Source of the DNA: Bythopirellula goksoeyrii
Lineage (GTDB): Bacteria > Planctomycetota > Planctomycetia > Pirellulales > Lacipirellulaceae
Length of the DNA: 64,000 nt
NCBI RefSeq assembly: GCF_008065115.1
Contig: NZ_CP042913.1
Span: forward strand, 4,065,658-4,129,657
Reading direction: 5' to 3'
Shown: in pieces, positions 8,177 to 55,595 of the stretch
How positions within the stretch are numbered: the first letter of the stretch is position 1
Layout of the letters: every line of letters starts with the position of its first letter
The notes under the pieces: generated by a model
What the model was told of the DNA's origin: nothing
The model's database searches: none
What the model saw: only the letters and a program-made list of their open reading frames with translations
Program-made: the position numbers and the translations under genes

Positions 8177-8856
8177 AAGCAATCGGCGACAAGCTCGATC
8201 GAAGAGCAAGTCTATTTAACTACGGCCGGTTTTGGTTGGCGACCTGGTAAATCGGCCATTGTGGGAGATTCGCGAAAAACGCGACACGTCACAGAGAACT
8301 ACGCAATACTGCCTTAACCAAGCAAATGAGTGCCGGTTTGTGCTGCGTTGGTGCCCGAAGTTGGACCAACACCAGCGAGTTGGCCGGTCGGCTAAGTCGC
8401 AGCGGTCTTGTTCGAGAAGTGACACCGCTGCACCTTGGCAGAAGTTCTTCCAGCGGTCGGGTGATGCAACCGCCTTGATTTAGAGCGATGTCGAACTGAC
8501 AGCAGTGCGAAGACCGCTCCGGGAGGTGGCGGGTACTTGTAGCAGCGACCAAAGGTTTCCCCAACCACTTTCAGCAAAACGGCTTACGGGCCGATTCCGG
8601 CTTTCTTCTTGACGCTAGGTTCCCCTAAAAACGCCCCAAAATCTTCCCGACGTGATTACCACGGGGAAGGGCCGCTTGTTATACTCACAGGAATGCGAAT
8701 TCCCGCAGCGTGCGTATGTCCAATACCTTTCCCTGATCCGACTCACGGCAAGGCAACTCACCAAGCCGTAAAACAGATTCCCAGACCTATTCTAAGTTGC
8801 ATTTAGCCACGGCAAGATATCGAACTAATCCCGGCCTCGTTAGTCCCTTGATCACC
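8177..8856. other. Intergenic region containing repeat copy A
   Basis: No credible gene. It holds one full copy of the dispersed structured repeat (8357-8473) and, before the next gene, AT-richer sequence with a possible -10 like TTATACT near 8680. The repeat lies about 180 bp after the LuxR gene on the same strand. Confidence 0.6.
8357..8473 (+). repeat. Dispersed structured repeat, copy A
   Basis: Head GAAGTTGGACCAAC; hairpin 1 GCGAGTTGGCC / GGCTAAGTCGC; hairpin 2 GCAGCGGT / ACCGCTGC with a 17-nt loop containing TTCGAGAA; tail GGGTGATGCAACC. It aligns over its whole length with copies B (17483) and C (33151) and more loosely with five or more others in the window. Confidence 0.8.
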
Positions 8857-17416: not shown

Positions 17417-18020
17417 GTCATCGATTGCCAAGCTAGGGAGGTGAGCATATCCTCGTTGCATCTGAGATGTCTCAAACTGCCCGAAGATGGACAAACACCA
17501 GTGAGTTAGCCAGTCGGCTAACTCGCAGCGGTCTAGTTCGAGATGTGACACCGCTGCGCTTTAGCAAAATCTCTTCCAGCGGTCGGTTGATGCAACCGAT
17601 CGCACATACCAAATGCTGTAAGTCGTGGCGGTCGTGGATCGCTCGGCAGGTTTGAAGCCGCCCGTCGCCTACAGACTTTTGAATACCTTACCGACGTTCT
17701 GCTCCGAAACTCTTATTGCGAGCCTTCATGACGGTCCGGGGCATGGAAAGCATGAAGGCAAGGGGGTGGTCGAATTGGTGCTTGTCTATTCCTTTGTGAT
17801 GTGAAAAGGCGCCGTGAAGAGCAATTAGCCGGGAAGGTTGCCGTTGCGCATATCGCACTGCCGATGCCGTAGTTCTACGAATGGGATCCACTTCCGGCAC
17901 ATGATACGGTCAATGTGCAAGTGTCGACAAATCAGTGAATCAGTACTATGCTGTCGACTGGGTCTGTTACAAGTGGAAAGTCCATTTCTGCCGGTCCGGC
18001 AAAAAAAAAGGAGCATCGCA
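17417..18020. other. Intergenic region with repeat copy B and leader of the dszB-like cluster
   Basis: Besides repeat copy B (17483-17602), no gene can be supported. The 180 bases before the dszB-like start are less GC-rich, presumably hold its promoter, and end in a nine-A run immediately before the GGAG ribosome binding site. Confidence 0.5.
17483..17602 (+). repeat. Dispersed structured repeat, copy B
   Basis: Head GAAGATGGACAAACACC; hairpin 1 GTGAGTTAGCC / GGCTAACTCGC, nearly perfect 11 bp with loop AGTC; hairpin 2 GCAGCGGT / ACCGCTGC; tail CGGTTGATGCAACCG, a perfect 6-bp palindrome. Relative to copy A, changes in one arm of hairpin 1 are matched in the other (GGCC/GGCTAAG against AGCC/GGCTAAC). 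Confidence 0.8.
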
Positions 18021-22421: not shown

Positions 22422-22957
22422 CTGACTACCTACGTTCATCTCCCGGTTGTGAGCACACCTCTGGCAGTTGCGCGTAGATCAAATATGCTGAGGTTGGACC
22501 ACTCGCTGCAGCTTGGAGAGTCGGCGTAAGCGCAGAGGTCTCCTTTCCGCGAGGACACCTCTGTCAGTTCGCTGAGAGCCCTAGCCGCACAGGCTGATGC
22601 ATCCTCAGCGAGTTGGCCAGTTGCCAAAGTGAACGAAGTCAGATTCCCCGCTGCGCGCAAGGGGGCGAAACAAATGATGATCGGAAACGGATCGATAGAG
22701 AGTGGCATCGCCTCGGTAGATGTCTCACGCGTCGCCGATTCGATGGCAGTCCGGCACTATGATTTCCGACATAAGTTTAAACACAAATGCTGTGAAGGTA
22801 TTGCTGCGAATAGACTTATATCGTTTGGTGCCGTCAAACGAAGGTTTCTGAAACACAAGGCCGAGCCCCATCTTGAAGCAGCCAATTCCCCGAGTTGAGG
22901 GCTGATCCATCGCCAGTGCAATGGCGGTAGAATCGGTGGTAATGAGCAACGGTTAGG
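22422..22957. other. Gene-free region containing repeat copy F
   Basis: Contains a divergent copy of the structured repeat (22489-22609), with an extra partial copy just before it (ACACCTCTGGCAGTTGCG near 22453) and a further fragment after it (GCGAGTTGGCCAGTTGCC near 22608). No gene supported. An 89-codon open frame at 22629 has no protein-like character. Confidence 0.5.
22489..22609 (+). repeat. Dispersed structured repeat, copy F (second subtype)
   Basis: Head TGAGGTTGGACCA; hairpin 2 is CAGAGGT / ACCTCTG, that is, both arms changed relative to the GCAGCGGT / ACCGCTGC of copies A and B so that pairing is kept; tail GGCTGATGCATCCTCAG. The same tail subtype occurs in copy H. Confidence 0.7.
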
Positions 22958-33046: not shown

Positions 33047-33687
33047 TGATTGACACTATCGGGAACAGACCGTTTTCTGAGACGCAGCTTAACAACTCTT
33101 TGCACGCGGCGGTGTGCACATCCTCGTTCAATTGGAGACAACTCAAAAGTGCAGCGGGTGGACCAGTTTCAGCGAGTTGGCCAGTCGGCTAACTTGCAGC
33201 GGTCTTGTTCGAGAAATGACACCTCTGCAACTTCGGAGAAGCCCCAATTCAACGCGGTTGATGCAACCGACGCTCGGTAGCTCGTGGACGATTTCCCGGT
33301 TTAACGACGGACCGGTTCAAGTGGTTAGTCACATCGCTGCCGATGCAACGGGTCGATGACGAGGTGTCTACAAAGTTGGGGTATCTGCCCCATTTTGTCG
33401 AGCGGCTGCCCACCGTGTGCCGCAGTACAACCGACCGCGTATAGCACCATCCCGACTAACCAGAATGGGGGGGGCAGGGCATCGAAGAATCGATTCGGCT
33501 CCTGAATTCTTGCGCCGTAGGTGGCGAATCGTGCGGTTTCGGATACATATCGACCCAATCGAAGCAATTGTGGCCACATCTTCTGTCAATTTGGTGATCA
33601 CTCCTCTATGATTGCAATTAACCTCAAGCGTTATTGCCTTGTCTGTTGAAGCAGCGGCGCAATTTTCTCTTTGCTTTGGGAGTGGTC
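33047..33687. other. Intergenic region containing repeat copy C
   Basis: The structured repeat occupies 33151-33270. The remaining sequence has no supported gene and should contain the promoter of the next large PEP-CTERM gene. Confidence 0.5.
33151..33270 (+). repeat. Dispersed structured repeat, copy C
   Basis: Altered head GCGGGTGGACCAG; hairpin 1 GCGAGTTGGCC / GGCTAACTTGC pairs throughout if G-T wobbles are allowed; hairpin 2 GCAGCGGT / ACCTCTGC with one mismatch; tail CGGTTGATGCAACCG, perfect palindrome. Confidence 0.78.
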
Positions 33688-37036: not shown

Positions 37037-38365
37037 TTATTGCAGTTTCATCTCAGAAATTCTCCGCTCGGCCATGATTTGCATCCTCTTTCCAGCTTCT
37101 TCGGGGGTGAGCTCTCCCTGAAGCAGCGCTCGAAGAGCGGGACGCATGGAGTCGAAGATTGCTCTCAGTTCGTATTCTACCGGCATCGGTCGACCCCGCT
37201 CAACTTGCTTGACTGAGACGGTAAATATCTTGTCGCTGCTGGAGAGTGCTTCTTCGTACAGTACATGAAGCGAAGAGACGATCCGCAATCGCTTTACTAA
37301 ACGGCGTTGCACTTCCTCTGAAGTCATGTACTGGACAAACAACATCGCAGCATCTGCGCGCTCACCCTTGGCATTGGCATTCAGCGAGTAACCAATGGGC
37401 GCCACCATCGGTCGCATTGGTATGCCGGTACCACTGACCGCTGGCAACACGGCGACGGCTGCGTTTAGCTTGGGATTGCCCAGATAGTCACTCCAGCTCC
37501 AATCGCCGTTGATGATCATGGCGGCTTTGCCATCTTTGAACAGAGCGTCGGCAATCGCGTAATCGCAATTTGGCGGTGTCACCAGTTCTTTATTTACGAT
37601 ACGATGAATCAGCGCGTAAGCTGCGATGGCTTCGGGAGTATCCAAATTAGGAACGCCGGGCGAGTTTTCGTCAAATACCCAGGCGCCGCAACCTGTTAGG
37701 AAAGGGACCGCGAAGAACGGCTCCGAGCAGTTCCACACTAGGCCATAGCGTTCTGGACGCCCGTCCTGATCCTCATCAATCGTCTGCTGCTTGGCGATCT
37801 GGATCAGGTCCTCAGTCGTTTGGGGAGGCTCGGAGACATAATTCTGGTTAAAGACAAGGGCAAGGTGGTTGCCGACGCGACCACCCACCAGAAGCAGTTC
37901 CTCTTTGGAAGAGTCATCTAGGCCTGGCAATTTGATCAAGGAGCCCTCGCCAAATTGTTGCTGTTGTGTTTTGCTGATCCATGGTGTCATGTCCTGGATG
38001 ATCCGCTTGCTTTGAAAAAGCTCCACCGCATCGGAGGGGCCGTAAACAAGATCGGGACCTATGCCATCCAGGGCTGCTGACTCATAGCCACTTTTCGAAA
38101 GCGCTCGCACGTCGATTTCTGGGTGCAGTTGGCGGAATCGTCCAATTTCGGCGTCGATTGCTTCTCGTTCGCCTGAGACCATGTGGTGCTGCCACATCGT
38201 GATTATCAGTCGATCGGATTGCTGGGCTGCGCATGCCGCGATGATGAACAGGAAGCTTAGGCACGCCAAAACAATGAGGGTGATCAGTCGATTCAATGTG
38301 TTCCTCTTGCTTCTCAGAATTATCGAAGGCGACGATCCATCCGAATCTAAAGTTAGCCATCGCAT
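37037..38365 (-). CDS. ABC transporter solute-binding protein (sugar family 1)
   Basis: 442 residues. N-terminal membrane/signal segment LITLIVLACLSFLFIIAACA with a possible lipobox Cys. The fold signature is clear: IITMWQHHMVSGEREAIDAE at the N-lobe, later AMIINGDWSWSDYLGN and QYMTSEEVQRRLVKR, typical of maltose-type binding proteins. It captures a sugar or other solute outside the cytoplasmic membrane for an ABC importer. No permease or ATPase genes are adjacent, so it is an orphan in this window. Repeat copy G lies just beyond its 3' end. Confidence 0.85.
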   Translation of the reverse strand: MRWLTLDSDGSSPSIILRSKRNTLNRLITLIVLACLSFLFIIAACAAQQSDRLIITMWQHHMVSGEREAIDAEIGRFRQLHPEIDVRALSKSGYESAALDGIGPDLVYGPSDAVELFQSKRIIQDMTPWISKTQQQQFGEGSLIKLPGLDDSSKEELLLVGGRVGNHLALVFNQNYVSEPPQTTEDLIQIAKQQTIDEDQDGRPERYGLVWNCSEPFFAVPFLTGCGAWVFDENSPGVPNLDTPEAIAAYALIHRIVNKELVTPPNCDYAIADALFKDGKAAMIINGDWSWSDYLGNPKLNAAVAVLPAVSGTGIPMRPMVAPIGYSLNANAKGERADAAMLFVQYMTSEEVQRRLVKRLRIVSSLHVLYEEALSSSDKIFTVSVKQVERGRPMPVEYELRAIFDSMRPALRALLQGELTPEEAGKRMQIMAERRISEMKLQ

Positions 38366-38672
38366 GGTTCACCTCCCCCAGAATAAGTTTTCTGCCTTCA
38401 TAGGGTAACTGCCGAAAAGACCGCGTTGCCCGAAATCTATTCTGCGAATTTTTGGCGGCGATTTCTGAATTGGCTCCGCTGTGTCTTTTATGTCTTTCTG
38501 TCTCCTTTGCGTGCGATCCTGCACACTTTTCGCGGCCGCAAGCCACCCGGCTCCGGGTTTTCGGCCTCTTTAAGTTCACGAGATTAGAATGTGCAATATT
38601 CGTTCCTAGTTGCTCAGCCCCCTCGCGTCTTCGGCTAAATCGCAGCATAGCTTTGCAGCGAAAAAGAAGAAT
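38366..38672. other. Intergenic region before the lone cassette gene
   Basis: 307 bases with no gene supported. No attC or attI recognisable at the left boundary of the cassette, although GCGTTATAAG occurs just after the chosen start (38683). Confidence 0.35.
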
Positions 38673-49968: not shown

Positions 49969-49999
49969 GCCGATGGCGAAGCTGCCGAGGTTGGACCAT

Positions 50000-51630
50000 C
50001 TCATCGTTCCACATAAGTCATCGTCAAAAAAAAGAGAACTAGTCCGGTCCGAATGTCTGCCAGGCGGTGGACAGGTCGTAAACTCGCTGCAGCCCGAACC
50101 ATAGTGTTTGCGTACCCGGGCGTGTCGATTGTCGGATGACGTAGCCTCCTAGCGAAGCAATCATGCGGATCATCTCATTCAATGGCGGTGGGGTAGATGG
50201 CGGATTCGCTTTGCGAATCGTCATCCACACCGACTTCCACTCGCTCGGTTCGAAGATCAGCTCACAACTTAGTTCTGGACACTCGCTTCCCAGTCGCGAT
50301 AGATACATCACCTTCCAAGCGATAATGGCGTAGACTGCCAAACAATTGAGGATTCGCTCTAGTGTCTCCAACTGACGATCTTCTATCCGACAGCCGCTCT
50401 TCAGCGTTCGAAAATAGATTTCAATTTGCCAACGAATGCAGTAGTAAGCAATGATTTGCCGCACTTGCTGGACCTCTTCGATCGGAAGTGTTGTCGCGAG
50501 CAACCATTGGATCGGTGCAACGCCATTTGGGGGATTGGATTCTTCGGCGAGGACGAGGTTTAACGTGACGTCGGACAGTTTGCGATTGCGACCTGCTCGA
50601 TACGGAGGACGCACCGTCACGGTGGTGGCTCGGACTTCTAGTTCCGCAAGGCGTGCCTCGCGTGATTCGTGACGTTTGCGCTTATTCGTGGGCCGTTTCG
50701 TGGTGCGACCACTGACGTTCACGCTACATTGATACAGACACTTTGTAGCGCGAGCCGCTTCTAGCCACGTCACCTCCGTGTCCACCGTAATCCGCTTCTT
50801 GCAGGCACGCACTAATAAGTGCACCTCGCCACTTGAAGTTGTTCGTGGTTCGCAGTACAGTTCATAAACGTCCGCTTCACTGTCGGCAATGCAGACACAA
50901 ATCGTCTGGGGACAGGTGTCGGCAACTTCGCGCGCTGCCCGCAGGCCTTCGATCCACCTATAAGTTTCTTTTTCTTCGATGGGTGTCTTTCGTACCCAGC
51001 GCCCCTTTTCGTTCGTGGTCATTTTCTTGATCTTGCTACGAGTCCAACATTTCTGCCAGGCGATGCCGAGGGGCAAGCCGTGTTCATTAAAGGCAACCAA
51101 CGGGTGAAAGAAAGCGCCAAGACGAGTATGGTATTCCAGAGGGCCAGCCCCGCGGACTTGCTGCTTCGGTCGGGTCAAGTCGAGATCTGTCGTATCCTGG
51201 ACTAACAAGGCAACCTCGGCTTGAGAAACTCTTTCCCGTGTGGCCTCGATATGCGGCTTGAGGATTCTTTCGGGCGAGACCTTGTCATTGTCGAAGAAAC
51301 GATAAGCGGCTTCCATTTCCGCTCGACCATGGGTGGCGGCGGGGACGCTCATGTTGGGCTTCGCGCCGAGCGATTCAATGACCTTGCCCAGCCGTATGGT
51401 CAACCGATGGTCGCCAAGCTTGGCACCGCGAACTTCGTCTCGTAGCGAAACGGACATCGGGGACCTCCATGAAAGAAGCAAAGAAAAGTAACGTGCTTCT
51501 CAACACAGTCCCTCGAAAATGACAAGCCAAAGAATCATTCGCAGCCAAGCTGATCTGGGCAAGGTCGATAGCAATACTATCACGAGACGCTGGTATAGCA
51601 GTGCATGCGAGACTTGTGTGGAACGATGAG
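50000..51630 (-). mobile_element. Complete IS4-family (IS50-like) insertion sequence, 1631 bp
   Basis: Ends are 20-bp inverted repeats (CTCATCGTTCCACATAAGTC left; CTCATCGTTCCACACAAGTC read inward from the right), 19 of 20 identical. It is bordered by a perfect 9-bp direct duplication TTGGACCAT (49991-49999 and 51631-51639), the size made by IS50/Tn5-type enzymes. It carries one intact transposase gene, so the insertion is probably recent. Confidence 0.9.
50039..51457 (-). CDS. IS4-family transposase, Tn5/IS50-like
   Basis: 472 residues from ATG 51457 (GGAGG 5 bp upstream; another ATG at 51481 lies before the site). N-terminal Tn5-type DNA-binding domain: LRDEVRGAKLGDHRLTIRLG, then AATHGRAEMEAAYRFFDND. 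DDE catalytic core: ALLVQDTTDLDLT (first Asp), VCIADSEADVYELY (second Asp), and the YREK-like motif IAYYCIRWQIEIYFRTLKSG with the catalytic Glu. Intact along its whole length, so transposition may still occur. It fills nearly the whole IS. Confidence 0.93.
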   Translation of the reverse strand: MSVSLRDEVRGAKLGDHRLTIRLGKVIESLGAKPNMSVPAATHGRAEMEAAYRFFDNDKVSPERILKPHIEATRERVSQAEVALLVQDTTDLDLTRPKQQVRGAGPLEYHTRLGAFFHPLVAFNEHGLPLGIAWQKCWTRSKIKKMTTNEKGRWVRKTPIEEKETYRWIEGLRAAREVADTCPQTICVCIADSEADVYELYCEPRTTSSGEVHLLVRACKKRITVDTEVTWLEAARATKCLYQCSVNVSGRTTKRPTNKRKRHESREARLAELEVRATTVTVRPPYRAGRNRKLSDVTLNLVLAEESNPPNGVAPIQWLLATTLPIEEVQQVRQIIAYYCIRWQIEIYFRTLKSGCRIEDRQLETLERILNCLAVYAIIAWKVMYLSRLGSECPELSCELIFEPSEWKSVWMTIRKANPPSTPPPLNEMIRMIASLGGYVIRQSTRPGTQTLWFGLQRVYDLSTAWQTFGPD

Positions 51631-51889
51631 TTGGACCATCTTCGGCTTCTTAGCCCGCCAGCTACGGCGCAGCGGTCTTGTCCGAGATCTGACACCTCTG
51701 CGAGTTCCGTGAGACTCGATCTCAACGAAGATGATGCAACCGCCAGCACGAAGCAAACGTCCCCTGTCGCATCGGTCTCAACCACCTCGTGTTCTGCCCA
51801 TTTGCTCGTATCGACCGCCATTGTTTGATTTCGCAGTGTCCCGCGGCTCTACTATTGGGTGCTATCCGAGTACCTGATGGAAACTTGCC

Positions 51890-52918
51890 GTGACCAACTC
51901 GTCGCAGCATCGCCGCACACCTTTGGGTTTGTTCGCCGACAAGCCAGCGCCCCGGCTCTATGATTACATGGTCGAGGTACTCCGTGTCCGGCACTATAGT
52001 CGCCGCACGGAGCAAGCCTACGTCCACTGGGTTCGCAGATACATCGACTTTCACAGTTGGCGCCACCCACGCGAACTTGCCGAAGACGAGGTCAACCGTT
52101 TTCTAACACACCTGGCCGTCAATGAGCACGTCGCTGCGTCAACGCAGAATCAGGCGCTCTCGGCGATACTCTTTCTCTACGAGCATGTTCTGCGGCAACC
52201 GCTCGACCGAATCGAAGGCGTCGTTCGCGCCCGTCGCCCCAAGCGGTTGCCCGTCGTTCTGACGGTCGATGAAGTCTCGCGCGTGATGACGCATCTGGCG
52301 GGCGAGAAGTGGTTGATCGCGATGCTACTCTACGGGGGTGGGCTGCGACTGCTCGAAGCACTCCGACTGCGAGTCAAGGACTTGGACTTCGAGCGTGGTG
52401 AGATCACCGTTCGCGAGGGAAAGGGAGACAAGGACCGCGTAACGACGATGCCGCGGGCTATCGCGCATCCTTTGCAGGAACACCTGGAGCAAGTCAAGTC
52501 AATTCACCAGCAAGACGTGGCCGACGGCTTCGGCCGCGTGGAGCTTCCTCACGCGCTGGCCCGCAAGTACCCTAATGCCAACCGCGAATGGGTTTGGCAG
52601 TACGTGTTTCCTCAATCGCATCGCTGGAGCAATGCGAAAACCGGCGACCAAGGAAGACATCACGTTCACGAGTCACTCGTCCAAAAGGCCATCAAGCAGG
52701 CTGTTCGACAAGCTGGGCTGACGAAACGAGTCACGAGCCACACGTTCCGCCACTCGTTCGCCACACACCTGCTGACGGACGGGTACGACATACGCACGGT
52801 TCAAGAACTTCTTGGGCATAAGGACGTGCGGACGACAATGATCTACACGCACGTCCTGAATCGCGGCGGACGCGGCGTCCGGAGCCCCGCCGACGGGCTG
52901 CGCCACCGGACTCGATGA
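51890..52918 (+). CDS. intI: Integron integrase IntI (tyrosine recombinase)
   Basis: 342 residues from GTG 51890. N-terminal SAM-like domain: [40 protein letters not shown]. Catalytic residues are in [19 protein letters not shown] (Arg), [13 protein letters not shown] (His, Arg), [16 protein letters not shown] (His, Tyr). The extra IntI-specific segment is present as [16 protein letters not shown] followed by [16 protein letters not shown], which separates IntI from XerC/D. It recombines attI with folded attC sites to capture cassettes. Here intI is transcribed in the same direction as the cassettes and attI lies at its 3' side, opposite to mobile class 1 integrons; this inverted layout has been described for Treponema and some planctomycetes. 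Confidence 0.95.
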
Positions 52919-53009
52919 GCGCTAGACAGGGGCGGCCTATCACGCAAAACCAGGGGCGCCATCGAAGCAAGCCACTGCTACAATAGAATTTACAACAAAC
53001 CACTGCCTG

Positions 53010-53076
53010 CGCGTTAGGCCGCACATTTGCGGTCTACAGGTGATAGGCAGAAACTTCCTATAACCAAGTTAGGCGA
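53010..53076 (+). other. attI-like primary recombination site region
   Basis: Between the intI stop and the first cassette gene there are two G^TTAGGC core boxes, at 53013 (GCGCGTTAGGC) and 53068 (CCAAGTTAGGC). The second resembles the AAGTTAGGC crossover end of attI1 and is 17 bp before the first cassette ORF. Which one is attI and which a degenerate cassette end cannot be settled by eye. Confidence 0.55.
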
Positions 53077-53084
53077 CTTCAGAA

Positions 53085-53315
53085 ATGAGCTGGTACGGCA
53101 CACATGCCATCCGCACTAAAGAAGAAGTCAAAAGCATGCTCCCTGCAGCGGCTTGTAAGCACTGTATCTATTGGTTCCAGGTCGCAATCGGCTCGTCTTC
53201 GGAGACGTGGTATCACCGATACGAAACCTGCCCCCGCTGCGGGATTCGGCAATGGGACCTTTTAGACCAGTTCACCGCTGAGGCAAACAGTCGCCTAACC
53301 ACCGGCTGCAGTTGA
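53085..53315 (+). CDS. Cassette 1: small zinc-ribbon-like protein
   Basis: 76 residues starting MSWYGTHAIRTKEEVKSMLP. Two CxxC pairs (CKHCIYW and CPRCGIRQWDL) fit a four-cysteine zinc site. No known family. Its stop codon lies inside the attC that follows, 14 bases past the first core box, so the last residues (AEANSRLTTGCS) are partly encoded by attC sequence. Promoter presumably in or beside attI. Confidence 0.65.
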   Translation: MSWYGTHAIRTKEEVKSMLPAAACKHCIYWFQVAIGSSSETWYHRYETCPRCGIRQWDLLDQFTAEANSRLTTGCS

Positions 53316-53400
53316 CCGGCAGCGCCCGCGAGTAGAATGTTGTGGTCGGTTGGACGCCTGCTCCCGCGGGCGGCCGGCAACTGAGCCTTTTACGTTAGAT
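53293..53400 (+). other. attC site of cassette 1 (108 bp)
   Basis: GCCTAAC ... GTTAGAT. Inner arms GGCTGCAGTTGACCGGC and GCCGGCAACTGAGCC pair with two unpaired bases in one strand (G and A), the extrahelical mark of attC. Almost the same sequence as the attC of cassette 3. Confidence 0.88.
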
Positions 53401-53412
53401 TGAGGAGGATTC

Positions 53413-53625
53413 ATGATGCCTAAAAGAACCAGGACCTCTCGGTGCGAGAGCGGTGGCCTGAAGCCTCACGTCGTAAGCATGGGTGTTGCCCTGGGTGCAG
53501 CAGTTGGAGTTGCACTCGGTCTTGCGCTCGACAACATCGGTGTCGGTATTGCAATTGGTCTCGGGAGTGGTACTGCGCTCGGAGCGGCCTTTTCCATGCT
53601 GAGCCACCATGGAGAAGACATCTAA
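53413..53625 (+). CDS. Cassette 2: small glycine-zipper-like membrane protein
   Basis: 70 residues, with an excellent site (GAGGAGG 5 bp before ATG). After a basic start (MMPKRTRTSRCESGGLKPHV) a long Gly/Ala helix follows: VALGAAVGVALGLALDNIGV, GIAIGLGSGTALGAAFSML, with G-x3-G spacing as in glycine-zipper membrane proteins. The TAA stop is part of the attC first core box. Possible pore-like or membrane-associated role; not known. Confidence 0.65.
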   Translation: MMPKRTRTSRCESGGLKPHVVSMGVALGAAVGVALGLALDNIGVGIAIGLGSGTALGAAFSMLSHHGEDI

Positions 53626-53676
53626 CCAGTGCATGCACAAGTCGCGCTCCGCGCGCATGTGATGCAAACGTTAGGG
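53620..53676 (+). other. attC site of cassette 2 (57 bp)
   Basis: ATCTAAC ... GTTAGGG. Short form with arms AGTGCATGCACA and TGTGATGCA, and the central GTCGCGCTCCGCGCGC stem. One base is unpaired in the arm. Confidence 0.8.
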
Positions 53677-53687
53677 GCCTCTACCGG

Positions 53688-53894
53688 ATGGGTGAAAAGG
53701 CAAGTGCATTTACAAAAGGTGGTTGTGGCTGCTTGCTTGCCTTCGCTGGTTTTGCAGTGATCGCTCTACTGCTAGGCGGCAGCGCCCACATAGATATTGG
53801 CGGAGCAATACTTCTGTTCTTGATCGGTGGACTGCTCGGATTGCTGATCCTCTGGATATACAACAAGGGCAAGAACGACCGCGGCGGCCCCTAA
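53688..53894 (+). CDS. Cassette 3: two-helix membrane protein
   Basis: 68 residues from ATG 53688, 12 bp after the previous attC. Two hydrophobic helices: GCGCLLAFAGFAVIALLLGG and GGAILLFLIGGLLGLLILWI, then the basic end YNKGKNDRGGP. The TAA stop falls in the core box of its attC. No weighty homology seen; many cassette genes encode such small membrane proteins. Confidence 0.65.
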   Translation: MGEKASAFTKGGCGCLLAFAGFAVIALLLGGSAHIDIGGAILLFLIGGLLGLLILWIYNKGKNDRGGP

Positions 53895-53996
53895 CCACCG
53901 GCTGCAGTTGACCGGCGACGCCCGCGAGTAGAATGGTGTGGTCGGTTTGACGCCTGCTCCCGCGGGCGGCCGGCAACTGAGCCTTTTACGTTATCT
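53889..53996 (+). other. attC site of cassette 3 (108 bp)
   Basis: CCCTAAC ... GTTATCT. Nearly identical to the attC of cassette 1 (about six differences in 108 bases), suggesting the two cassettes come from the same source integron. Confidence 0.88.
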
Positions 53997-54091
53997 CGCT
54001 TAGCTTAGACAACACGATTAGCACAAAAACGAACGAACCCGATCAGATCCCAACTCGCAAAGCGTCGAAATCTTGCCTTCGTTCATGTGCA

Positions 54092-54469
54092 TTGGCACTG
54101 TTTATCTTGGTGACGGCGCCGGTCTTTCTCTATTGGTTCGTTTTCCCTGCCCCGAAATACATCGGGAATAAACCAAACGGAGAATCGTACATCGCCACAA
54201 AATTCGAGTTTCGCTATGGTTACGCAACGAGATTCGTTGATGATCCGCACAACAAAATGCAATGGGTTTTCGGAGAATTGCCCGATTCAATTACTGTTGA
54301 TGATTCCGGTTTGAGGCTAATCGTTTACAATTCCCACAATGCGATCATCAAATCATCGATAGATTCCATGGAGGCCTACGACGATTCGTTCAAACACAAG
54401 GGCTACATGGGAATCTGGGACGACGAGCGGGAGAGCTTTGCGGTTGATTCGAGTGGAACCATTGAATAA
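54092..54469 (+). CDS. Cassette 4: membrane-anchored hypothetical protein
   Basis: At least 125 residues; the only common start codon in frame is the TTG at 54092, but the frame is open back to the cassette boundary (53990) with an ATT at 54017, so the true start is uncertain. One membrane helix near the N-terminus (LFILVTAPVFLYWFVF) followed by a soluble domain beginning PAPKYIGNKPNGESYIATKF, then FRYGYATRFVDDPHNKMQWV and ending with VDSSGTIE. No known family. The stop lies 23 bp before the attC. Confidence 0.55.
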   Translation: MALFILVTAPVFLYWFVFPAPKYIGNKPNGESYIATKFEFRYGYATRFVDDPHNKMQWVFGELPDSITVDDSGLRLIVYNSHNAIIKSSIDSMEAYDDSFKHKGYMGIWDDERESFAVDSSGTIE

Positions 54470-54492
54470 GCCGCTGAAGCACGACGATCGCG

Positions 54493-54583
54493 AGATAACA
54501 AAGGGTTGCACACGGAGCCGCGGGTCGCGCGGGTTTCAATGTTTAGCGAGTTCGCCGCGGCCCGGTGAACCCGGACGTTATGC
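54493..54583 (+). other. attC site of cassette 4 (91 bp)
   Basis: AGATAAC ... GTTATGC, with arms built on AGGGTTGCACACGGAGCCGC and its counterpart before CCCGGACG. Same general type as the lone attC at 39150. Confidence 0.85.
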
Positions 54584-54595
54584 CCCTCAACTCCA

Positions 54596-55336
54596 ATGCG
54601 TTTACCAGCAATTAGCGGTGTGATTGATCGACGTATTCTCGCGAACTATCGCATCGATCCCGAGTGCATGGCGGCCGCGTTACCTTCGCCATTCCGGCCA
54701 CAATTGGTCGATGGTTACGCGATCGGCGGCATCTGCCTTATTCGCCTGAAACGGGTTCGGCCAAAAATGTTTCCAATTCCTTGGGGTATCGGGTCGGAGA
54801 ACGCTGCGCACAGAATTGCTGTCGAATGGGAAGCAAACGGTCAAACGATGAATGGTGTCTACATTCCTCGCCGAGATACCAATTCAATGCTCAATTCGTT
54901 GGCCGGTGGCAGGATCTTTCCCGGAATTCATCATCACGCAAAGTTCACTGTAGAAGAAATTGGTGATCACTATTCCGTCACGATGGCAAGCGATGATGGC
55001 GGTGCCAAGGTTCATGTTTCTGGCACGGTCGTCCCCGCGATATCGGAATCATCAGTTTTCGACTCCCTCGAATCCGCCTCCAGCTTTTTTGAATTGGGCT
55101 CGCTTGGGTATTCAGATACCAGCACTAATGGCAAATTCGATGGTCTTGAATTGCAATGCGAAAACTGGCACGTCGCATCCTTAAACGTCGACAAGATCCA
55201 ATCCAGCTATTTCGAGGACGAATCACGCTTCCCAAATGGTTCGGTTGAATTTGACTGCGCTTTGTTAATGCGAGATATTGTTCATGAATGGCATGGTCGC
55301 CCCGATCTATGTTGTGCACCAAAAATCGGGGCATAA
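54596..55336 (+). CDS. Cassette 5: DUF2071/YqjF-like protein
   Basis: 246 residues from ATG 54596, 19 bp after the previous attC boundary. It belongs to the DUF2071 (YqjF) group with an acetoacetate-decarboxylase-like fold: IDPECMAAALPSPFRPQLVD, GYAIGGICLIRLKRVRP, NGVYIPRRDTNS and GIHHHAKFTVEE. Function in the family is unproven. The TAA stop is within the GCATAAC core box. This is the largest gene in the array and one of few with a known family. Confidence 0.75.
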   Translation: MRLPAISGVIDRRILANYRIDPECMAAALPSPFRPQLVDGYAIGGICLIRLKRVRPKMFPIPWGIGSENAAHRIAVEWEANGQTMNGVYIPRRDTNSMLNSLAGGRIFPGIHHHAKFTVEEIGDHYSVTMASDDGGAKVHVSGTVVPAISESSVFDSLESASSFFELGSLGYSDTSTNGKFDGLELQCENWHVASLNVDKIQSSYFEDESRFPNGSVEFDCALLMRDIVHEWHGRPDLCCAPKIGA

Positions 55337-55422
55337 CAATCGCATGCACCTGAGTTGCCGCTGGTGCCGTTTTCTGAAATTGAGCATCGCTGGCGGCAAC
55401 CCGGTGATGCGTGACGTTCGGC
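55331..55422 (+). other. attC site of cassette 5 (92 bp), array end
   Basis: GCATAAC ... GTTCGGC. Inner arms ATCGCATGCACC and GGTGATGCGTGA, and TTGCCGC / GGCGGCAA pair with offset bases. The crossover GTT is kept but the following bases (CGGC) are less typical. It is the last attC before non-integron sequence. Confidence 0.8.
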
Positions 55423-55478
55423 ACCGGTCTCTTTTTGGCGGGGACTCCTCGTGCAGTTCGGCCAACGCTCAAGCTGCT

Positions 55479-55595
55479 GAAGTTGGACCACCCGACTGGA
55501 GTTACGCTCGACGCCAACTCGCAGAGGTGTACTTCGAGATTTGACACCGCTGCGCCATGGGAAAAACCGTCCGAGCGGTCGGTTGATGCAACCGA
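55479..55595 (+). repeat. Dispersed structured repeat, copy E
   Basis: Head GAAGTTGGACCACC; hairpin 1 GAGTT / AACTC; hairpin 2 GCAGAGGT / ACCGCTGC with one mismatch; tail CGGTTGATGCAACCGA, perfect. It begins 57 bp after the last attC, so the integron is bracketed by copy D on the left and copy E on the right. Confidence 0.78.

Follow-up and report, generated by a model that had tools for sequence, protein, structure and literature searches.

The 64,000-nucleotide window analysed here, bases 4065658-4129657 on the single 6.47 Mb contig of the Bythopirellula goksoeyrii genome, contains a chromosomal integron in which the integrase gene intI is followed by five cassettes in the same orientation. 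This integron is present twice in the genome, in identical copies that each lie between dispersed hairpin repeats. The integron itself had been described in a first-pass annotation of this DNA; what is new here is that it has an identical second copy and that repeats surround the two. We interpret the element as a working-looking integron of the inverted-IntI clade whose whole platform was copied, likely by exchange or insertion at the repeats, and passed between genera, and we put the probability of this reading at roughly 70%.

The two copies are 100% identical over 3759 bp and lie 2.07 Mb apart on the same contig. Their flanks are unrelated, apart from a hairpin repeat, here called repeat B, which is found on each side in the same orientation. 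The unit, its flanking repeats, an insertion sequence (IS) in the left repeat, and three other copies of repeat B in the window are located as follows.

51732-55490, + strand: duplicated unit, 3759 bp, zero mismatches to G000:C1:2048253-2052011 of the source genome (locus L009, 8254-12012)
51628-51742, + strand: left flanking repeat B, aligned length 115 bp, of which the first three bases are the IS end (from alignment)
55480-55594, + strand: right flanking repeat B, 115 bp (from alignment)
50000-51630, - strand: Tn5/IS4-like IS in the left repeat, with transposase at 50039-51481 (-) and a 9-bp duplication, TTGGACCAT, at 49991-49999 and 51631-51639
8358-8472, + strand: repeat B, other copy (from alignment)
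17484-17598, + strand: repeat B, other copy (from alignment)
33155-33269, + strand: repeat B, other copy (from alignment)

Of 11 copies of repeat B that were aligned, all selected for being close to full length, 9 measured 115 bp. The repeat has a variable hairpin middle enclosed by two conserved ends, GTTGGACCA and TGATGCAACCG. One query gave 14 matches in the genome including itself (13 of the 14 on the + strand), and TGATGCAACCG occurs 20 times, compared with 2 occurrences of the reversed control. Four single copies folded with z-scores of -3.9, -1.2, -4.8 and -0.5, and the consensus structure showed weak covariation, with two-sided change in 3 of 18 pairs and a positive covariation term. 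Between the two loci the left repeats show 59% identity, with the inner end TGATGCAACCG in common, and the right repeats 72%, with the inner end AAGTTGGACCA in common. The identity between the integron copies enters each flanking repeat by only 11 conserved bases, on both sides. Repeats this diverged, with a shared run this short, were not carried along with the unit, whose borders are therefore repeat termini. Within a locus, the left and right repeats are 55% (window) and 78% (second copy) identical; they are direct copies and not a fresh target duplication, but could hide one. The outermost 9 bases of the unit match in inverted orientation at 7 of 9 positions (by eye), which is a property of the ends of the flanking repeat.

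The platform has been copied whole: a 3759-bp unit that starts slightly left of intI and ends shortly beyond the last attC recombination site is found again at a second chromosomal site, and both copies lie between dispersed 115-bp hairpin repeats, with their borders at conserved repeat termini. In the mechanism we propose, copying would most likely have occurred by exchange or insertion at these repeats, whose end motif is also the target of the resident Tn5-like IS. This IS is inserted at TTGGACCA(T/A) with 9-bp duplications in both of its copies, the window copy and the one further copy found in the genome, which is identical (G000:C1:3949809-3951439), and the integron unit has TTGGACCA at its right border too. 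Our first idea, that both IS copies lie within repeat B, was clear for the window copy only. Our reading is of a chromosomal platform that moves in one piece, with candidates only for the moving enzyme, if any.

Several results weigh against such movement. No transposase was found inside the duplicated unit, and the best alignment of its ends as terminal inverted repeats was matched or beaten by 379 of 500 shuffles. A search for an empty site through G023, which is closest to the source genome in the left flank, or through the gene bordering the second copy on the left found none. Synteny with G023 breaks off close to where the sulfate gene ends, and past that point the repeat is matched only weakly and in part (E 0.0024); the gene bordering the second copy was present in 0 of 40 other genomes searched. 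Other segments between the same borders were also lacking, as only the two integron copies match over 700 bp among the 20 sites after TGATGCAACCG, and the GTTGGACCA sites with a locus (30 of 91) gave a single pair alike, over 114 bp at 78%. The flanks of the second IS copy match repeat B weakly on the left (reverse strand, E 0.0043) and not on the right. Finally, the right repeats of the two loci, R1 and R2, contain internal identical runs of 14 and 15 bp, compared with 11 bp at the border.

Simple ectopic recombination among interspersed repeats competes strongly with our reading, and we give it slightly less than even odds. By this account a sedentary inverted-type integron was duplicated through homologous recombination or gene conversion, and the borders lie where homology ends. 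Interspersed repeats are the usual substrates of ectopic exchange, and the repeats concerned are dispersed, as the 14 matches to one query (itself included) and the 20 to 2 ratio for TGATGCAACCG attest, and common in intergenic DNA; both borders also fall within identical runs of the repeats. However, these border runs are only 11 bp, and R1 and R2 have longer stretches of identity within the repeat that went unused, so that a simple homologous exchange would not obviously stop at the border. Moreover, after a single circle-and-reinsertion event the two loci should have one repeat in identical form, which they do not; we therefore rejected a circle model of excision between the flanking repeats and reinsertion into a third, given identities of 59% on the left and 72% on the right. 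A more specific proposal is that in this bacterial family the platform is a mobile integron of fixed extent that enters precisely at hairpin-repeat ends, within and between genomes, driven in trans by the resident Tn5-like transposase or by a Y1-type single-strand transposase, for which the genome has 14 matches above cutoff and a candidate gene at G000:C1:4140181. We regard this as doubtful; if it is true, the 'sedentary' integrons of the inverted clade are not sedentary.

It is improbable that the second copy is an assembly artefact. Identical multi-kilobase repeats are error-prone spots, but both copies are on one 6.47 Mb contig with flanks that differ on both sides, the flanking repeats themselves differing by 28-41%. 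Misassembly swaps flanks and does not readily create a second copy. Two further dispersed repeats are common to both regions, at 22487-22604 of the window and 16557-16675 of L009 (92% over 119 bp), and at 38352-38606 of the window and 6389-6642 of L009 (83.5% over 255 bp).

The components of the integron in the window are given below; G039, G016 and G051 are genomes of other genera, and L123 and L026 are integron loci in G039 and G051, respectively.

51890-52918, + strand: intI, integron integrase, 342 aa, GTG start (TIGR02249, 475 bits; PDB 2a3v, E 9e-87)
53013-53074, + strand: attI region, crossover G^TT placed between 53068 and 53069 (alignments to G039 L123 and G051 L026; L123 junction by eye)
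53069-53394, + strand: cassette 1, open reading frame (ORF) 53085-53315 (76 aa), attC1 (fold, pairing and chain test)
53293-53400, + strand: attC1, 108 bp
53395-53670, + strand: cassette 2, ORF 53413-53625 (70 aa, Gly-rich), attC2 (fold and chain test)
53620-53676, + strand: attC2, 57 bp
53671-53990, + strand: cassette 3, ORF 53688-53894 (68 aa, hydrophobic), attC3 (fold, pairing and chain test)
53889-53996, + strand: attC3, 108 bp
53991-54577, + strand: cassette 4, ORF 54092-54469, attC4 (fold, pairing and chain test)
54493-54583, + strand: attC4, 91 bp
54578-55416, + strand: cassette 5, ORF 54596-55336 (246 aa, DUF2071), attC5 (pairing and chain test)
55331-55422, + strand: attC5, 92 bp
55416-55479, + strand: conserved right end directly 3' of the last attC (similar sequence after attC in G039 and G016)

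IntI matched the NCBIfam integron integrase family TIGR02249 with 475.1 bits (E 1.1e-142, cutoff 265). Residues 29-335 align with Vibrio IntI4 (PDB 2a3v, E 9e-87) across the IntI-specific segment preceding HTFRH, which confirmed the extra segment claimed in the first-pass annotation. The closest named relative is an IntI from a Pirellula metagenome-assembled genome, with 74% identity. Comparison of the window with Rfam at the gathering threshold gave zero matches, and the window contains no tRNA as a candidate insertion site. The family result, together with the five-cassette chain described below, upholds the description of a complete chromosomal integron with intI and five co-oriented cassettes.

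The bottom strands of attC1-5, with some flank included, fold to hairpins with unpaired bases, with z-scores of -2.9, -3.9, -2.3, -1.9 and -2.5 against 200 single-base shuffles. Single attC folds are weak evidence in hairpin-rich DNA. A loose attC fold scan recovered three of the five sites, gave 22 matches in the other 48 kb of the window and 9 in six shuffles, and was dropped as too unspecific; pairing and chain tests were used instead. The pairing test compares the first 9 bases of a cassette with its own R'' box, and these paired at 9 of 9 positions in cassettes 1, 3, 4 and 5, on a background of 3 unrelated matches on the + strand in the cassette region and 9 in the 48 kb control. Cassette 2 pairs at 7 of 8 bases. 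The chain test adds the requirement that the R' of one cassette begins the next, and joined all five cassettes through four junctions (53068-53394-53670-53990-54577-55416), compared with 1 chain in the 48 kb control on both strands. At one junction the listed partner was the start of cassette 1 instead of cassette 3; attC1 and attC3 are 96% identical. The folds and the chain thus bear out the proposal of five attC sites of 57-108 bp with extrahelical bases. Sites of the attC1/attC3 type, 104 bp long and 86-93% identical, are also found behind other ORFs in two further genera, three each in G039 and G016. That an orphan tyrosine recombinase happens to lie next to five palindromes arisen by chance has a negligible probability and is, in our view, already refuted by the chain test: single folds are common here, as the 22 loose matches show, but a chain of five cassettes stands against one chain in the control, the same attC type follows other ORFs beside intI in two other genera, and IntI is a clear family member. 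Elsewhere in the source genome, a lone attC of this type (91%, 105 bp) lies at G000:C1:5599796-5599900 (L162), distant from both intI copies, and is possibly a stray cassette end.

An attI-like site downstream of intI had also been proposed, with mapping by strain comparison as one way to place it. Over 545 bp covering the end of intI and attI, the window is 91.6% identical to L123 (G039:C7:48000-66000), the second integron of G039. This likeness ends at 53072, just beyond a shared GTTAG, where a different cassette starts in L123. Local alignment with G051 L026 (73.5%) ends at 53070. Because the likeness to other genera stops there and the next cassette differs in G039, we placed the putative attI crossover at 53068/53069, at G^TT, and the proposed site is consistent with both comparisons. 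By analogy with its family, IntI would recombine folded single-stranded attC with attI at this position. Since IntI would join attC to attI at 53068/53069, new cassettes would be expected to enter next to intI. Between intI and cassette 1, a promoter scan found nothing and no terminator-like site was found; TGCTACAAT at 52976-52984 is a promoter candidate by eye only. As intI runs toward attI and no terminator-like site precedes cassette 1, intI transcripts could extend into the cassettes.

The cassette array lies 3' of intI and runs in the same direction. This layout is not new, since an 'inverted IntI' clade with intI co-oriented with its cassettes is already published (PMC8352920), and PMC3607928 describes it in Treponema, whose intI branches with those of Kuenenia, Synechococcus, Chlorobium and Blastopirellula. 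The likeness to Treponema and some planctomycetes that had been suggested for this DNA agrees with that account. We took a census of the array side at IntI loci from relatives and public genomes, using a strict pair test (107 loci, some of them overlapping and four being the window's own unit or its second copy) and the chain test (103 loci). The pair test placed the array downstream of intI at 19 loci, upstream at 10 and on both sides at 1, with no call at 77, and the chain test gave 12 downstream, 15 upstream and 76 without a call. Given 1 chance match per 48 kb in the control, both strands counted, each set (879 and 846 kb, one strand) should contain about 9, and calls based on a single match are therefore unsure.

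An IntI tree of 97 rows grouped 33 of them in one branch (SH-like approximate likelihood ratio test, SH-aLRT, 96), to which the 14 rows labelled co-oriented belonged, together with 0 of the 17 labelled canonical. Planctomycetes, cyanobacteria, Chlorobiaceae, Coriobacteriia, Rokubacteria and Krumholzibacteriota are among the labelled rows of this branch. For this tree L069 and L104, each with one downstream match and both among canonical IntIs, were left unlabelled, and other single-match loci were kept. The fewest layout changes on the tree were 1, rising to 3 once L069 and L104 were labelled and to 2 with chain calls alone; restricting the labels to loci with at least 2 matches or with both tests agreeing (11 co-oriented, 10 canonical) again gave 1 change. 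The tree came from a short search without bootstraps and with a long-branch outgroup, and omits L039 (too short) and L123. With these caveats, the window IntI was recovered in the inverted-IntI clade. Both layouts occur inside one family, G016 and G038 being canonical. The best match per site for the shared attC type was 89-93% for three sites in the inverted-type G039 and 88-93% for three in the canonical G016, where a canonical-layout integron, L127 (G016:C1:341000-356000), carries the attC type of the family's inverted integrons.

Comparison with other genera points to transfer of the platform within the family. G039 has an IntI 86% identical to that of the window, in a full integron with one cassette, and a second integron, L123, which is truncated and co-oriented, has several cassettes, and is closer in DNA to the window than the full copy is. 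The 91.6% identity of this second copy, which extends over non-coding attI, compares with 74.7-79.6% for the rpoB region. In the same genus as the source, IntI was absent at E<=1e-40 from 12 of 13 genomes searched, and the remaining one has an IntI 54% identical. The high identity relative to rpoB and the scarcity of IntI in the genus therefore indicate that the platform may have passed between genera. The evidence on the other side is that the DNA identity of the full G039 intI to that of the window, 80.9%, barely exceeds the rpoB value; that the second G039 copy is cut at the left, with its right end not shown; and that the same-genus genomes are 76-97% complete. Repeat B matches lie directly left of the full G039 integron (E 0.0022) and to its right beyond an IS (E 6e-5), and are weak. 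About 60 bases past the last attC are alike in the window and G039, and a search with those two also found this sequence in G016, which has a canonical IntI (E 1.7e-11). Arrays end against it in 3 of 4 cases in which the end was read by eye, and related copies are dispersed in the source genome.

The first-pass annotation had described four unfamiliar small cassette proteins, some of them zinc-ribbon-like or with a glycine zipper. The unfamiliarity stood, as no Pfam family matched the proteins of cassettes 1-4 above cutoff; the glycine zipper fell below cutoff and no zinc-ribbon family was matched. The cassette 4 ORF has no ATG, and its TTG start at 54092 is a guess. The cassette 5 protein matched DUF2071 (E 1e-8) and is 47-49% identical, over nearly its full length, to proteins in Streptomyces (plasmid) and Nonomuraea records, most of which are annotated as DUF2071, an ArsR-type regulator appearing under the same match. 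None of the five proteins was found in the other loci fetched up to that point (tblastn, E 0.01), and the cassette order was not seen as ordinary conserved genes in those loci.

How integrons left chromosomes and turned mobile lies behind the spread of cassette-borne resistance. A complete platform soon after duplication as a whole unit, with defined borders and a relative in another genus, offers a natural system for this question beyond class 1. One attC type is moreover common to integrons of opposite layouts within a family (G039 inverted, G016 canonical). The carriage on a transposon or conjugative plasmid that marks mobile integron classes 1-5 was seen for neither copy, both being on the chromosomal contig without a transposase or inverted ends, and the best plasmid IntI match was 60% among the 5000 matches listed. 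REP/BIME hairpin repeats serve as IS targets. Like these, repeat B forms dispersed palindromes into which an IS inserts at a fixed motif, clearly so in one case and at the same motif in a second; in contrast, it is a 115-bp element that also marks integron borders.

Class 1 integrons bounded by miniature inverted-repeat elements (MITEs) were reportedly described by Gillings in 2009, a study cited in PMC8618304, and TIME-COMPs (PMC13367494) are placed with them here. These resemble the window in having a whole integron between two short repeats that seems to move as a unit. The repeats that bound them carry terminal inverted repeats recognised by a transposase. In the window, by contrast, the bounding repeats have diverged from one another, point the same way, stay behind when the unit is copied, and come from a dispersed chromosomal hairpin family. 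The open-access literature searched, in the parts accessible, contained no duplicated, repeat-bounded whole chromosomal integron. Near-identical intI genes inside one genome have been reported, as a functional gene plus a pseudogene (PMC2426708), whereas the duplication in this genome takes in intI, attI and the five cassettes without a change. The inverted chromosomal integrons of Treponema denticola, Chlorobium, Synechococcus, Kuenenia and Blastopirellula are like the window in that intI runs toward attI and along the cassettes; unlike them, the short five-cassette platform of the window exists as two identical, repeat-bounded copies.

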